Positions 5,766-50,647 of a stretch of 61,477 nucleotides of DNA are shown here, piece after piece. The stretch is from contig JAKQKQ010000297.1 of the NCBI GenBank assembly GCA_029560585.1, positions 1 through 61,477 of the forward strand, in the 5' to 3' direction. Each line of letters starts with the position of its first letter. Within the stretch, counting starts at the first letter, position 1. The DNA comes from Verrucomicrobiota bacterium. Lineage in GTDB: Bacteria > Verrucomicrobiota > Verrucomicrobiia > JADLBR01. The notes under the pieces were generated by a model. It worked only from the letters and a program-made list of their open reading frames with translations, was not told where the DNA came from and did no database searches. The position numbers were made by a program, and so were the translations under genes.

Positions 5766-5928
5766 AAGGGCATCCGTGGCTCCCGGCCCATCCCCGCGCG
5801 AAGACCGCTGGAGCACAGTACCATTATTGATTATCTTATCGGAGATGCCGAAGAATGGCAGCTTTCGATTTCATCCCCTTTCCCATCTTCGTGTTGACGC
5901 CGCTGTCGCCATCGGGCGAAAATAGGTG

Positions 5929-6681
5929 ATGTCCACGTCGGCATGGGATTTGCCCTCGGCGCGCCTCACGGCGGTGGCGTCCACCCTCGCCAAGAGCCCG
6001 ATCTTTGCCGCCTCGCCCGCTGACGAGCTAAGCCAAATTGCCGCGGTCTGCCAGTCCATGCGGCTCGGGAAGGATGACTACCTCTTCCGCGAAAATGAGC
6101 CCGCGGCAGGATTTTTCGTCGTCCAGAGTGGCGCCGTCAGTGTCCATCGCATGGGCCCCGGTGGCAAGGAGATGGTCATACACGTGTTCCGCTCGCCAGA
6201 ATCATTCGCCGAGGCCGCCCTAGCGGCCGACGTCGGCTATCCTGCCGATGCCCGCGCCATCGAGCCCTCCACAGTCCTGCTCGTCCCGCGCCAGGCCTTC
6301 CTCGACCTCATCCGCCGGAAACCCGAGATGGCCCTCCGCATGCTCGCTTCCGTCAGCCTCCACCTCCGCACCCTCGTCTCCCGCCTCGACGACCTCCAAC
6401 TCAAAGACGTCGAAACCCGCCTCCTTTTCTGGATCGACGCCCGCCTTCGCGAGTCCGGGCCATCCACCAAATCCATCCAGATCCGCGGCACAAAGCGGTC
6501 GCTGGCGCTTGAGCTCGGCGTCACTTCCGAGACCCTCTCGCGTACTTTTGCATCCCTCCGCGAGCGCGCCCTCATCCGCATCGCCGGCACGCGCATCGAC
6601 GTCCCCAACCGCAGCAAGTTTGATCTCGCCCTGAAACAAAGGCTCTCGGCAGGAACCGATCCCAGCCCGAAAACAAACTGA
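5929..6681 (+). CDS. Crp/Fnr-family regulator, Dnr/Nnr-like
   Basis: 250 residues: an N-terminal cyclic-nucleotide-binding-type beta-roll (about 24-135), a long dimerisation helix (about 136-175), then a winged helix-turn-helix. The recognition helix ELGVTSETLSRTFASL contains E201, S204 and R205, the E-x-x-S-R triad by which FNR reads TTGA half-sites. The N-terminus has a single cysteine (Cys41), so it cannot bind FNR's 4Fe-4S cluster. The linker LVSRLDDLQLKDVETRLLFWI resembles Dnr/NnrR NO sensors. Two perfect TTGAY-N4-RTCAA sites precede the NO-linked operons near 45.5 and 47.5 kb, which makes it the natural candidate to bind them. NO or haem sensing is inferred. GTG 5926 is an alternative start. 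Confidence 0.85.
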   Translation: MSTSAWDLPSARLTAVASTLAKSPIFAASPADELSQIAAVCQSMRLGKDDYLFRENEPAAGFFVVQSGAVSVHRMGPGGKEMVIHVFRSPESFAEAALAADVGYPADARAIEPSTVLLVPRQAFLDLIRRKPEMALRMLASVSLHLRTLVSRLDDLQLKDVETRLLFWIDARLRESGPSTKSIQIRGTKRSLALELGVTSETLSRTFASLRERALIRIAGTRIDVPNRSKFDLALKQRLSAGTDPSPKTN

Positions 6682-43299: not shown

Positions 43300-43620
43300 T
43301 CAGCCGATCTGCCGGAAATTCAGTTGGCCTTGGCCGGCGGCATTGATCCGGTCCGGGGTCCATGGTGGATCCCACACCAACCGCACATCGACGCGCCCGA
43401 TGCCTGGGATATCCGAAAGGGCGTTGCGCGCGCCTTCCACCATGAATCCTTCCAGGGGGCATCCACGCGTGGTCAGCGTCATATCGATTCTCAACTCTCC
43501 GGAGCGCCCATCCAATTCGACCCGGTAGATCAGCCCGAGGTCCACGACGTTCAATCCGAGTTCGGGATCGATCAGTTTCCTGAGCCTTCGCGTCACTTCT
43601 TCCTCAAGGTCATCCGCCAT
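43300..43620 (-). CDS. MIP18/PaaD-like (DUF59) Fe-S cluster assembly protein
   Basis: 106 residues: IDPELGLNVVDLGLIYRVEL and MTLTTRGCPLEGFMVEGARNAL are the DUF59/MIP18 signature, with Cys in TRGCP. Such proteins (SufT, PaaD, the N-terminus of ApbC) help load iron-sulfur clusters. GGAGG lies ten bases before ATG 43620. It begins one base after the upstream haem-copper-like gene, in an operon with a double DUF2249 protein. The 3' end faces the secreted-protein gene 13 bp away. Confidence 0.87.
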   Translation of the reverse strand: MADDLEEEVTRRLRKLIDPELGLNVVDLGLIYRVELDGRSGELRIDMTLTTRGCPLEGFMVEGARNALSDIPGIGRVDVRLVWDPPWTPDRINAAGQGQLNFRQIG

Positions 43621-43621
43621 G

Positions 43622-44920
43622 TCAGACACTCCTCCCTGATTCTTCGGTGGTGGGCCGATTGGCTCCCACGAACCAATGTCGCATCACGAGCGCCACGTTG
43701 CCCGCAAAACAGAGCATGCCGCACAACCAGACGACGGCGCCCCCGATCACGGGTGCGGTCTCGGTCCCGAAAATGCCGGCGACCAGCAAGAGAAAACCGA
43801 CTAGGAGGAGGGTGGCCGCAGCGGACTGGAGGATCGGCGAAACCATGTCGGCGAAAACCGGGACCGGTTCCCGGCCAACGCGCGGTCCATACACCCTGTG
43901 CCAGACCAAAAAAGGGAGAATCTTGTAGAGCATGCCAACGATCGAGGGAACCACGACGCCGAACAACGCGGCAAATGGATACGCGAGCTGAAAGCTTTGA
44001 CCAAGCTGCCCGCCGCCCAACCGGACCGCCGCGATCCCCAGGGCGCAGGTCGGCAGGAGCATGGCGACGCCCCCGAGAAAGGTGATCAGCCCCCAGTCGA
44101 TTTCGGCGCGCCTTCGGATTCGGAGGATCGCGACGAGTTCGATGGCGTGGAGGGAGAGGCCCATCGCGATGGCCACCGCGGCCAGGCCGGCGCCGAGGTT
44201 CCAACCGAGGGGCAGGGATATGACCAAGACGGCAAGCCCCCCATTGACGAGTCCCCAAAGCCACCACGCGCGACGTCCCTCGCGCCACTCGGCAAGCGTG
44301 AACATGGGCACGAGTTTGAGCGAGATCCCGATGATCAGGTTGATAAAGATGCCCAGTATCCCGAGATGGGCATGTGCCTGCAACCAGCCCATGGGGTCAC
44401 CCGGTAACAGTGGCCGGAACTTGGCGGTGACCATCGTCAGCCCCAGCCCGGTGGTCGCGAGCATCCACCCGAGCGTCGTTGTGACAAATGCGGCCGTTAT
44501 GTCGAACCGCGCCAGTTTTCCCAGCGTCCGGACCATGTTGTGGACGAACATCAGCACGCCACAGAACACGAGTGTGCCACCGAGCGCGACGCCCCGCATC
44601 TCCCATGCGAAGAATGCCGGAACCATGGCGCTGACGCCCAGCAGGTGAAATGCGGTGTGTGCCGAGGCCATGCGCGGGCTGAACAGCGATACCTCAAGCG
44701 CCACGGGCACCAGTTGGTACATCGCGCCCAGGCATACCGACATCGCGCAACCCAAGACGACGAGATGGGCGAGGGCGACCGTGTGGGGACGATAGTAGGG
44801 TCCCGCGATCGTTCCCGGCTCAAGAATAAGCCAGAACGATGCCGCCAGGATGCACGCCACGCCGAACAGGATAAACCGCAGCGGGATTACGGTCGGGGGT
44901 GCCTGGCGCCCAGAGACCAT
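43622..44920 (-). CDS. 12-TM haem-copper oxidase subunit I-like (NnrS/cbb3-like) membrane protein
   Basis: 432 residues with about twelve transmembrane helices. Histidines cluster in membrane motifs: YYRPHTVALAHLVVLG, ASAHTAFHLLG, FVHNMVRTLG and WLQAHAHLGILG. This pattern recurs in small proteins annotated as cbb3-type subunit I or NnrS-like and linked with NO metabolism. The full oxidase metal set (six ligands plus the Tyr-His pair) is not evident, so I would not call it a terminal oxidase. It lies between the DUF2249 and MIP18 genes in a tight operon headed by a perfect FNR-type box. A haem/copper role against NO is inference. Confidence 0.72.
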   Translation of the reverse strand: MVSGRQAPPTVIPLRFILFGVACILAASFWLILEPGTIAGPYYRPHTVALAHLVVLGCAMSVCLGAMYQLVPVALEVSLFSPRMASAHTAFHLLGVSAMVPAFFAWEMRGVALGGTLVFCGVLMFVHNMVRTLGKLARFDITAAFVTTTLGWMLATTGLGLTMVTAKFRPLLPGDPMGWLQAHAHLGILGIFINLIIGISLKLVPMFTLAEWREGRRAWWLWGLVNGGLAVLVISLPLGWNLGAGLAAVAIAMGLSLHAIELVAILRIRRRAEIDWGLITFLGGVAMLLPTCALGIAAVRLGGGQLGQSFQLAYPFAALFGVVVPSIVGMLYKILPFLVWHRVYGPRVGREPVPVFADMVSPILQSAAATLLLVGFLLLVAGIFGTETAPVIGGAVVWLCGMLCFAGNVALVMRHWFVGANRPTTEESGRSV

Positions 44921-44938: not shown

Positions 44939-45454
44939 TCATGCCCCCGGGGCACAACCCTTTCGGATCACTGTCTCCCAGCCACCGGACGGCAGTTCGT
45001 GGCTTTCTGCGGCAAAACCGCGCTCCGCCAACGTGTCGAGGAGATGCATCGGCCTCCGGTCGGTCAACGCCCTGAGGGAACCCGTTGCCGGGAGCGTCTC
45101 GAGGGCGGTCAGGATTCGCATCATCGGCTGCGGCGGTTCGAGACCCCGGGCGTCGATGTCAATCATGCCGGCCGCTGCGCCGCATGGGGCCATGGGTCCA
45201 CCTTGAGAGATCGGCCCATCGGTTGGCAGATCGTCGCCAAATTCGATTTCCCAATGCTCGGGTCCCACCTGGCGGCTCTTGTGCCCGAGACCGCGCGAGC
45301 GGAGCAGTTGGATCAGCGGCATGGGTTCAAATATCGCGATCACCCGCAATCGGCCGCCTGGGGGCAGAGCCGCCGCAGCTGCCAAGATTTGGGGCAGAGG
45401 GTGCCGCCCCGATCGCAGATCCTCGCGCACGTCTAAGACAGTGACCTGACTCAT
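44939..45454 (-). CDS. Double DUF2249 protein
   Basis: 171 residues with two DUF2249 modules. Module 1 is VTVLDVREDLRSGRHPLPQIL...LRVIAIFEPMPLIQLLRSRG...WEIEF; module 2 is IDIDARGLEPPQPMMRILTALE...ALTDRRPMHLLDTLAERG...WETVIRK. Both share the DxR...P-x-I/M pattern of the TusA-like fold, but the TusA Cys is missing in both. DUF2249 domains occur beside NO reductases, hemerythrins and Fe-S repair proteins. ATG 45454 coincides with the predicted transcription start, suggesting a leaderless mRNA. A TTG at 45502 would add 16 residues but overlaps the FNR-type box. Confidence 0.8.
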   Translation of the reverse strand: MSQVTVLDVREDLRSGRHPLPQILAAAAALPPGGRLRVIAIFEPMPLIQLLRSRGLGHKSRQVGPEHWEIEFGDDLPTDGPISQGGPMAPCGAAAGMIDIDARGLEPPQPMMRILTALETLPATGSLRALTDRRPMHLLDTLAERGFAAESHELPSGGWETVIRKGCAPGA

Positions 45455-45488
45455 GCCGGGAACATAGCCCAGGATCGGCTGTGGCGGC

Positions 45489-45502
45489 TTGACCTGCGTC
45501 AA
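45489..45502 (-). promoter_or_regulatory. FNR/Dnr-type operator, class II position
   Basis: Minus strand TTGAC-GCAG-GTCAA is a perfect 5+5 palindrome matching the anaerobox consensus TTGAY-N4-RTCAA. A -10-like TATGTT lies at 45466-45461, placing +1 at 45454, the A of the DUF2249 ATG. The box centre is then at exactly -41.5, the canonical class II FNR activator position. It overlaps the stop codon of mobA. Confidence 0.78.
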
Positions 45503-46110
45503 AAAGTTGGATTTTCGCGAAATCCGCCGGGAGGCACGTCGTCCGGCGAGTTCCAGTTAGCGAACAGAGGCGCGTCGCTTGCCGGGACATCCCAGCGCAT
45601 GCAGAAGCCCAATCGGAGGCAGTCCGCGGCCCAGGCGCGGACGGAGAGCGCGGCCTGGGCCAGCGCGCGCGTTGCGGGATCCAGGCAGTCCCGCGTGTAC
45701 ACGGCCGCGAGCGGCTGGGCCTCGCCATCGACGTGCGGGATCACGCCAGAGTTTGCGCCGCACCGGGCCAGCAGCCGCGATATGATTCCCTTGTTCAGCG
45801 CGGGCATATCGACCGCCAGCACCAAGAGATGCGTGCCCCGGCAAGCGTCAATGGACGTCGCGATGCCAGAAAGGGGTCCCAAATCCACCCTGGTGTCGAC
45901 GACCTGTTCGGTGGCCGGACGCCCGAGATTCTGGTCTGGGCGCACCGACAGGAAAACGCGGCTGGCACCGGATGCGAGCGCCAACTGGGTCTGTCGCCGC
46001 CAGAGGGGCTCACCGTCGATTTCCAAGAGGGCCTTGTCTCGGCCCATGCGGCGAGACCTTCCCCCGGCTAGCACGGCGGCCTCCACTTGGATGGCGCACG
46101 AATTACTCAC
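45499..46110 (-). CDS. mobA: Molybdenum cofactor guanylyltransferase MobA
   Basis: 203 residues. The nucleotide-binding loop LAGGRSRRMGRDKALLEIDG, the VDLGPLSGI motif and LVLAVDMPAL (metal-binding DMP) are the MobA signature. It attaches GMP to Mo-molybdopterin, giving the bis-MGD cofactor used by nitrate reductases and other DMSO-reductase-family enzymes. The start is GTG 46110, eight bases before the MOSC gene stop, so translation is coupled. The MOSC protein is encoded just upstream. Confidence 0.92.
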   Translation of the reverse strand: MSNSCAIQVEAAVLAGGRSRRMGRDKALLEIDGEPLWRRQTQLALASGASRVFLSVRPDQNLGRPATEQVVDTRVDLGPLSGIATSIDACRGTHLLVLAVDMPALNKGIISRLLARCGANSGVIPHVDGEAQPLAAVYTRDCLDPATRALAQAALSVRAWAADCLRLGFCMRWDVPASDAPLFANWNSPDDVPPGGFRENPTF

Positions 46111-48308: not shown

Positions 48309-48334
48309 GTGTGGAGCTGAAACGAGGAGAGATC

Positions 48335-50647
48335 ATGAGTGAGAAGCAAAGCTCCTATCGTGGATTGTGGTTGAGTCTGACCAGTGTCATCGGGCTTTCC
48401 TTCCTTGTGCTGGGCTACTACGGGTCGGAGATATATCGCCTGGCCCCACCGGTGCCTGGGAAGGTCATGACAGCGGATGGCAAGGTGCTGTTCACGGGCC
48501 AGGACATCAAGGATGGCCAGAATGTTTGGCAATCGATGGGAGGGCAGGAGGTGGGCACGGTCTGGGGTCATGGTGCCTACGTCGCGCCAGATTGGTCGGC
48601 GGACTGGCTCCACCGTGAATCCGTGTGGTTACTGAACCACTGGGCGGCGGAAGAGGGTGGCAAAACCTACGAGCAACTCCCCCCGGAGAAGCGGGCGGCG
48701 CTCCGGGAGCGATTGAAAGGAGAGCTGCGCACAAATACCTATAACCCACAGACGGGCGACTTGGTCATCTCTCCTGTCCGGGCGAAAGCCTTCGAGGCGA
48801 TCGGCGCGCACTACGATGGGCTCTTTGGCGCCGATCCTGAGCTTCGGGAATTGCGCGAGGCGTACGCGATCCCGGTTAATTCGATCAAGGATTCGGCGCG
48901 CAGGCGGGCGATGAACGCGTTCTTCTTTTGGACCGCGTGGGCGTGCGGCACCGAGCGCCCCGGTAGCAAGATCAGCTATACCCAAAACTGGCCGCCGGAA
49001 TCCCTCATCGAAAATCGTCCCACCGGTTCCGTGGTGGTTTGGTCGGTGGTGAGTTTCGTCGTGTTGTTGGCCGGGGTGGGGGCCATGGTCTGGTACTTTG
49101 CCAGACAGAGGCACAAGGATCAGGAGGAGCGGATCGAGGTCCCGGGCGTGGATCCACTGCTGGCTCTCAAGGCGACGCCATCGATGAGGGCGACGCTGAA
49201 GTACTTCTGGGTGGTGGCGGCCCTGGTCGTGGTCCAGGTGGGGCTTGGGGCGGTGACCGCGCATTACGGGGTTGAGGGTGACGGTTTCTATGGGATTCCG
49301 CTCAGCACATGGCTGCCCTACTCCGTGGCGCGCACGTGGCACACGCAGCTCGGGATCTTCTGGATCGCGACCGCCTGGCTCGCCACGGGGCTGTTCGTGG
49401 CGCCAGCGGTGTCGGGCAACGAGCCGCGCTGGCAGAAAGCCGGCGTTGATTTTCTATTCGTCTGCCTGCTCATCATCGTGGGTGGTTCGCTGGTCGGCGA
49501 GTGGCTGGGCGTGCAGCAGCGCCTGGGGTTGATCGGGAACTTTTGGTTCGGTCACCAGGGATACGAATACGTCGATCTGGGCCGCGCGTGGCAGATCTTC
49601 CTGTTGGTGGGATTGTTTCTGTGGCTGTTTCTGATGGGCAGGGCCCTGTGGCCCGCGTTGAAGGATCCCGGGCCGAATCGTCACCTGCTTGCTTTGTTCA
49701 TCGTGGCGTCGGCCGCCATCGCCCTGTTCTACGGGGCCGGCCTGATGTGGGGACGGCAGACCAATCTGGCGGTCGCCGAATACTGGCGGTGGTGGGTGGT
49801 CCATCTCTGGGTGGAAGGTTTCTTTGAGGTGTTCGCCACCGTGGTGGTCGCATTCCTGTTCACGCGCATGGGGCTCCTGAGGACAGACAGCGCCACTAAA
49901 GCCGTGATATTCTCCACCGTGATCTTTCTGGCGGGCGGGATACTCGGGACCTTTCACCACCTCTATTTTACGGGCACGCCCACGGCGGTGCTGGCCTTGG
50001 GGGCGACGTTCAGCGCCCTCGAGATCGTGCCGCTGGTGCTGATAGGATTCGAGGGCTACGAGAATCTGACGTTGAGTCGTGCGCGCCCGTGGGTATCGGC
50101 CTACAAATGGCCGATCTACTTCTTTGTGGCGGTCGCATTCTGGAATCTGGTGGGCGCGGGCCTGTTCGGTTTTCTTATCAATCCCCCCATCGGCCTCTAT
50201 TACATGCAAGGCTTGAACACGACCCCGGTGCATGGGCACGCCGCGTTGTTCGGCGTGTACGGGATGCTGGGCATCGGGCTGATGCTGTTCTGCCTGCGAG
50301 GGCTGACGCGGCAGGAGGCGTGGAAGTCGGGTGCGCCAGCATTCAGCTTCTGGGCGATGAACATCGGGCTCGCGCTCATGATCCTGTTGAGCCTCCTGCC
50401 GGTTGGGCTGCTGCAGACGTGGGCGAGCGTGGAGCATGGAATGTGGTACGCGCGCTCCGCAGAGTTCATGCAGACCGGGCTGATGGACAAGCTGCGCTGG
50501 ATGCGCGTCATAGGCGACACGATCTTCGCGCTCGGGGCGGTGGGACTGGGCTGGTTTGTGCTGGGTCTGAAGACGGGGTGGTCTTTGGCGGGACCGCGCG
50601 ACAACGCGACACTTTCGGCAGAAGGTTCTGCCCAGACGGGTGGCTGA
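48335..50647 (+). CDS. norZ: Quinol-dependent nitric oxide reductase (qNOR)
   Basis: 770 residues. A fused NorC-like N-terminal extension without haem c motifs (about 30-225, with QNVWQSMGGQEVGTVWGHGAY) precedes the NorB core with about 12 helices. Ligands visible are His336 (TWHTQ, low-spin haem), His490 with Glu494 and Glu498 (HLWVEGFFE, Fe-B site and NOR-specific glutamates), His541-His542 (FHHLYF), and His633/His635 (HGHAAL). qNOR reduces 2 NO to N2O using quinol. It follows the DUF6448 gene by 26 bp with GAGGAGA before the ATG. No other denitrification reductase is in the window, so the job may be NO detoxification. It is often labelled norB. Confidence 0.95.
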   Translation: MSEKQSSYRGLWLSLTSVIGLSFLVLGYYGSEIYRLAPPVPGKVMTADGKVLFTGQDIKDGQNVWQSMGGQEVGTVWGHGAYVAPDWSADWLHRESVWLLNHWAAEEGGKTYEQLPPEKRAALRERLKGELRTNTYNPQTGDLVISPVRAKAFEAIGAHYDGLFGADPELRELREAYAIPVNSIKDSARRRAMNAFFFWTAWACGTERPGSKISYTQNWPPESLIENRPTGSVVVWSVVSFVVLLAGVGAMVWYFARQRHKDQEERIEVPGVDPLLALKATPSMRATLKYFWVVAALVVVQVGLGAVTAHYGVEGDGFYGIPLSTWLPYSVARTWHTQLGIFWIATAWLATGLFVAPAVSGNEPRWQKAGVDFLFVCLLIIVGGSLVGEWLGVQQRLGLIGNFWFGHQGYEYVDLGRAWQIFLLVGLFLWLFLMGRALWPALKDPGPNRHLLALFIVASAAIALFYGAGLMWGRQTNLAVAEYWRWWVVHLWVEGFFEVFATVVVAFLFTRMGLLRTDSATKAVIFSTVIFLAGGILGTFHHLYFTGTPTAVLALGATFSALEIVPLVLIGFEGYENLTLSRARPWVSAYKWPIYFFVAVAFWNLVGAGLFGFLINPPIGLYYMQGLNTTPVHGHAALFGVYGMLGIGLMLFCLRGLTRQEAWKSGAPAFSFWAMNIGLALMILLSLLPVGLLQTWASVEHGMWYARSAEFMQTGLMDKLRWMRVIGDTIFALGAVGLGWFVLGLKTGWSLAGPRDNATLSAEGSAQTGG

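Follow-up and report, generated by a model that had tools for sequence, protein, structure and literature searches.

Messages made from known class II FNR promoters carry a 5' leader as a rule. Such promoters, described in E. coli and in the gonococcus (PMC3032703), combine a palindrome centred at -41.5 with a -10 element approximately 22 nt downstream and have no -35 element. The DNR/NnrR regulons of denitrifying Proteobacteria use a box of the same type and a regulator of the same fold. Leaderless genes led by a TA signal (TANNNT approximately 12 nt upstream of the start codon) have been described as genome-wide classes, both by Zheng 2011 (PMC3160421), whose main text does not mention Verrucomicrobia, and in Akkermansia muciniphila, in which 10% of TSS are leaderless by Cappable-seq (PMC4782308). 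SD motifs are scarce in some Verrucomicrobia (PMC10783764). DUF2249 proteins, for their part, are expressed in nitrate respiration in Thermus (DrpA/DrpB; PMC6282519) and induced under denitrification in Haloferax (PMC11218638); these cases resemble the one proposed here in their induction, but involve other regulators and motifs. Class II promoters of FNR and leaderless mRNAs have each been described before; a regulon in which geometry couples the two is, as far as we found, undescribed: no paper on leaderless FNR/DNR regulons in Verrucomicrobiota was found in the open-access literature, most subscription papers being outside the scope of the search.

The locus under study lies in a 61,477-nt stretch of contig JAKQKQ010000297.1 from a Verrucomicrobiota bacterium (hereafter the window). 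On the minus strand, TTGACGCAGGTCAA is followed after 22 nt by TATGTT, then by the 6 nt CCCGGC and by the ATG at 45454 (Table 1). The box centre falls between 45496 and 45495, hence at -41.5 when 45454 is taken as +1. The first-pass annotation had proposed a perfect box at exactly this position, followed by TATGTT and an ATG at +1, and was accurate to the base when the positions were re-read; the overlap that it reported between the box and the mobA stop codon is also present, as the mobA ORF ends at 45499 with its TGA inside the box. The locus has the marks of a class II promoter (a TTGAY-N4-RTCAA palindrome, with a -10 placed for a box at -41.5) together with those of a leaderless gene: the -10 is approximately 12 nt upstream of the start codon, the same signature used by Zheng 2011 (PMC3160421), and no SD-like motif is seen in the sequence upstream of 45454.

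Table 1. Features of the window relevant to the DUF2249 operon and its putative regulation.
Feature	Position	Strand	Remarks
DNR-like Crp/FNR-family regulator, candidate activator	5926..6681	+	recognition helix S-E-T-L-S-R; one Cys
MIP18/FeS_assembly_P protein, last gene of operon	43300..43629	-	domain match
432-aa membrane protein, weak COX1 (haem-copper-like) match	43622..44920	-	domain match
DUF2249-DUF2249/TusA protein, 171 aa, first gene of operon	44939..45454	-	domain matches; orthologues
ATG start codon	45452..45454	-	A is the predicted +1 (leaderless, from geometry)
-10 hexamer TATGTT	45461..45466	-	occupies -12 to -7; 22 nt after box
FNR/DNR-type palindrome TTGACGCAGGTCAA	45489..45502	-	centre at -41.5 relative to 45454
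mobA-like gene, upstream of operon	45499..46110	-	3' end carries box
Second perfect box TTGATCCAGATCAA	47530..47543	+	upstream of DUF6448-qNOR
Quinol-type nitric oxide reductase (NorB)	48311..50647	+	likely same regulon

The content of the operon is as first annotated (double DUF2249, haem-copper-like, MIP18), with the qualification that the COX1 match is weak; the second DUF2249 domain of the 171-aa protein also scores as TusA. The same protein set is present in rhizobial and Gemmobacter nirK/nor/NnrS clusters, with homology of 40% for the DUF2249 protein, 26% (E 8e-10) for the 432-aa protein and 41% for the MIP18 protein, and a homologue of the 432-aa protein adjoins a DUF2249 gene in Mesorhizobium. 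With a homologous operon in rhizobia, the locus shares the targets DUF2249, MIP18, nirK and nor with the DNR/NnrR regulons. A C. necator hypothetical protein encoded beside MIP18 was also considered as a homologue of the 432-aa protein and was rejected, as no convincing homology was seen.

We propose that transcription of the operon depends on an activator of the Crp/FNR family, probably of the DNR type, acting at a class II promoter. A dimer would bind TTGAC-N4-GTCAA at -41.5, where it would replace the -35 element, and would help a sigma-70-type RNA polymerase to initiate at the first base of the DUF2249 ATG. The resulting mRNA would therefore be leaderless (0-1 nt), and the DUF2249, haem-copper-like and MIP18 proteins would be translated from it under NO or low oxygen. 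We consider this explanation, including the generality of the layout in the NO regulon of the class, to be highly probable as a whole. An AUG at +1 is no proof of translation in itself: in Neisseria gonorrhoeae, a perfect -41.5 site drives an FNR-activated RNA that has AUG at its 5' end and yet is not translated (PMC3032703).

Conservation was checked on orthologous DUF2249 operons, as the first-pass annotation had suggested, and both the box and its spacing to the start codon are conserved. The nearest relative, the congeneric Verrucomicrobiia bacterium SJ186 (71% protein identity), has a near-perfect box, TTGAGCCGGATCAA, situated within the mobA ORF and followed by CATGTT and, again at a distance of 48, by an ATG; the 34-nt spacer has nonetheless diverged, with matches at only 16/34 positions. 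Box-to-start distances in several other class members are 47, 48 or 49.

PF10006 is present in 70/385 genomes of the class, and 88 regions around DUF2249 genes were analysed. Only perfect TTGAY-N4-RTCAA boxes were counted, on both strands, with the distance d measured from the first base of the box; start codons were taken from an ORF-based scan (ATG/GTG opening ORFs of at least 70 codons), which was used in place of a profile-based DUF2249 gene set (27 seeds) that missed many members. In these 88 regions, the numbers of start codons at d=47-51 are 18, 34, 9, 10 and 8, a sum of 79 versus 16.2 expected, with 34 versus 3.2 expected at d=48 alone; the genomes are related, such that the counts are not fully independent, and several are MAGs. 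The concern over kinship is limited by the divergence of the spacers and by the involvement of 17 families. When the promoters are aligned, 78% have A at -11 and 74% have T at -7. TANNNT is offset from the box by 22 nt in 33/80 cases, by 21 in 7 and by 23 in 2, and almost never occurs elsewhere. A pyrimidine precedes the start codon in 72/80, fitting a YR start at the A, and the ATG:GTG ratio is 68:12 at box-linked starts versus 218:282 in the background.

A further set of promoters was assembled blind to start codons, by the presence of a box and of TANNNT at 21-23 nt (n=66). In 43/66 of these promoters, drawn from 17 families, the predicted +1 coincides with an ORF start (46-52 nt from the box), whereas control windows of equal width have a mean of 8.7 and a maximum of 16. 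These counts support the leaderless reading that had been put forward for the operon; the other 23/66 class II promoters are not leaderless. The reversed motif has zero sites in the class regions, and positional control relied instead on proteobacterial regions and on off-position windows. The sampled proteobacterial regions show no excess of starts at d=47-51. In denitrification regions of Proteobacteria, the -10 lies 21-22 nt from the box, yet only 1/10 promoters are leaderless, compared to 43/66 in the class (Fisher P 0.001). Herein lies the difference from the described systems: in most class members the start codon coincides with the predicted +1, unlike in known class II FNR promoters and DNR/NnrR regulons. 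Genome-wide, the excess at d=47-51 in genomes G246 and G055 is modest (11 versus approximately 7.6 expected), and most of their palindromes look like chance occurrences; the rule accordingly applies to sites that are accompanied by a -10 or lie in NO clusters, and not to all palindromes.

The leaderless signature is also found apart from the box. In this genome, with box genes excluded, TANNNT occurs 15 times at -12 of an ATG versus 3.3 (sd 1.6) for the remaining offsets; SD motifs are slightly enriched (0.13 versus 0.10). The proteobacterial regions lack a TANNNT peak, and their SD signal is clear (0.171 versus 0.066).

The proteins that start at d=47-51 include 29 DUF2249 proteins, 16 cupins, 12 TusA matches, 4 YgbA_NO and 4 multicopper oxidases, counts taken from regions chosen around DUF2249 genes; others are copper proteins, cytochromes c, Crp-type regulators and one hemerythrin, among others. 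A short cupin-type protein (e.g. MSEKPLID...ETRFAPNGI) is the second commonest gene with a leaderless promoter in the class regions. The genes downstream of class boxes belong largely to NO/denitrification families. This content (multicopper oxidases, YgbA_NO, hemerythrin and cytochromes) supports the proposed NO or low-oxygen control, as do the DNR-like regulator in the window, which has the E..SR pattern, and similar regulators beside DUF2249 genes.

The regulator encoded at 5926-6681 is the only Crp/FNR HTH protein above the cut-off that was found in the genome (95.7% complete). Its best match among solved structures is DNR (3dkw, E 4e-23, phmmer). It has the E..SR recognition-helix pattern of the FNR type (SETLSR), and similar regulators (e.g. 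KRVLAAELGTxSET[LF]SRT) occur at 26 places in the DUF2249 regions. It has a single Cys, compared to the four that hold the [4Fe-4S] cluster of FNR, so this regulator cannot carry an FNR-type cluster. The box had been called FNR-type: the palindrome type stands, but it is better read as FNR/DNR-type, given that the only clear candidate regulator lacks the iron-sulphur cysteines of FNR.

Other explanations of the locus differ in where the message starts, in what binds the box, and in whether the box is used at all. Transcription from the same class II promoter might begin a few nt upstream or downstream of the A, giving a leader of 1-8 nt or a trimmed message that is leaderless only in a loose sense. 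We regard this as possible, though the less favoured reading: the spacing between a -10 and the start normally varies by a few nt, and the start codons are spread over d=47-51 beyond 48 alone, but the mode at 48 and 47 is sharp and the strong pyrimidine preference at -1 is what a YR start at the A would give. Binding of an oxygen-sensing [4Fe-4S] FNR or of a repressor, in place of a DNR-like activator, is unlikely; an FNR box cannot be told from a DNR box by its sequence, and an FNR protein could be missing from an incomplete genome, but the only Crp/FNR HTH protein found above the cut-off is closest to DNR and lacks the FNR cysteines, and a box with a -10 at 22 nt is the geometry of an activator.

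Since the 3' end of mobA carries the box, a second, leadered transcript could also arise by read-through. That the operon is translated mainly from such a mobA-DUF2249 mRNA, independently of SD motifs and with the box adding only a minor transcript, is improbable: mobA is on the same strand and overlaps the box, and SD motifs are scarce in the lineage, but the conserved -10 and fixed spacing would then have no reason. Least probable by far is a chance palindrome. The box alone is weak evidence, because TTGAC-N4-GTCAA has 2 sites in the 7.06-Mb genome versus 4 for a reversed-pattern control (TTGAY-N4-RTCAA has 13 versus 5). The case against chance is made by comparing sequences, namely by the position kept in SJ186 despite its diverged spacer and by the class-wide pattern of box-to-start spacing.

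Not every box in this genome fits the preferred reading of a leaderless class II promoter. The site TTGATCCAGATCAA lacks a -10 where a class II promoter would have one, and ATG 47661, likely the start of DUF6448-qNOR, is approximately 130 nt away and preceded by an SD-like AAAGG; given this distance and the missing -10, DUF6448-qNOR is not leaderless. At hcp (C17:5060-5073, minus strand), a box is followed by TAGAGT at an offset of 22 and then by AGTAGGAGAAGTGATG, and the message is predicted to have a leader with a clear SD despite the same promoter type. The leaderless form is therefore frequent and not obligatory, and on this evidence the layout appears general, though not universal, in the NO/denitrification regulon of Verrucomicrobiia. 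A multihaem cytochrome c gene (C109:43826-43839) has a box, CATGGT and an ATG at d=51.

Previous work on TA-led genes concerns genome-wide classes, whereas here the regulon of one activator would be leaderless by geometry. The same layout in 17 families suggests that much of a stress response may be made from RNAs without a leader. Whether the regulon is largely leaderless by design in Verrucomicrobiia, the activator site fixing the start codon at +1 and so coupling transcriptional control to SD-independent translation in a stress response that could be switched as a whole, we judge to be evenly balanced. If the proposal is true, TSS, genuine start codons and the members of the regulon can be predicted from sequence alone by the box-to-ATG rule, across a large class that is mostly uncultured. 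The retention of leaderless translation in a stress response could also be studied in a clean system, as the hcp gene of this genome seems to combine this promoter type with a leader that carries an SD. The hcp gene and the DUF2249 operon form a natural contrast of leadered and leaderless messages from one promoter type.

Contigs C101, C184 and C217 of this genome carry identical copies of TTGATTATTATCAA with identical flanks, near contig ends; these are probably copies of a repeat element that breaks the assembly.
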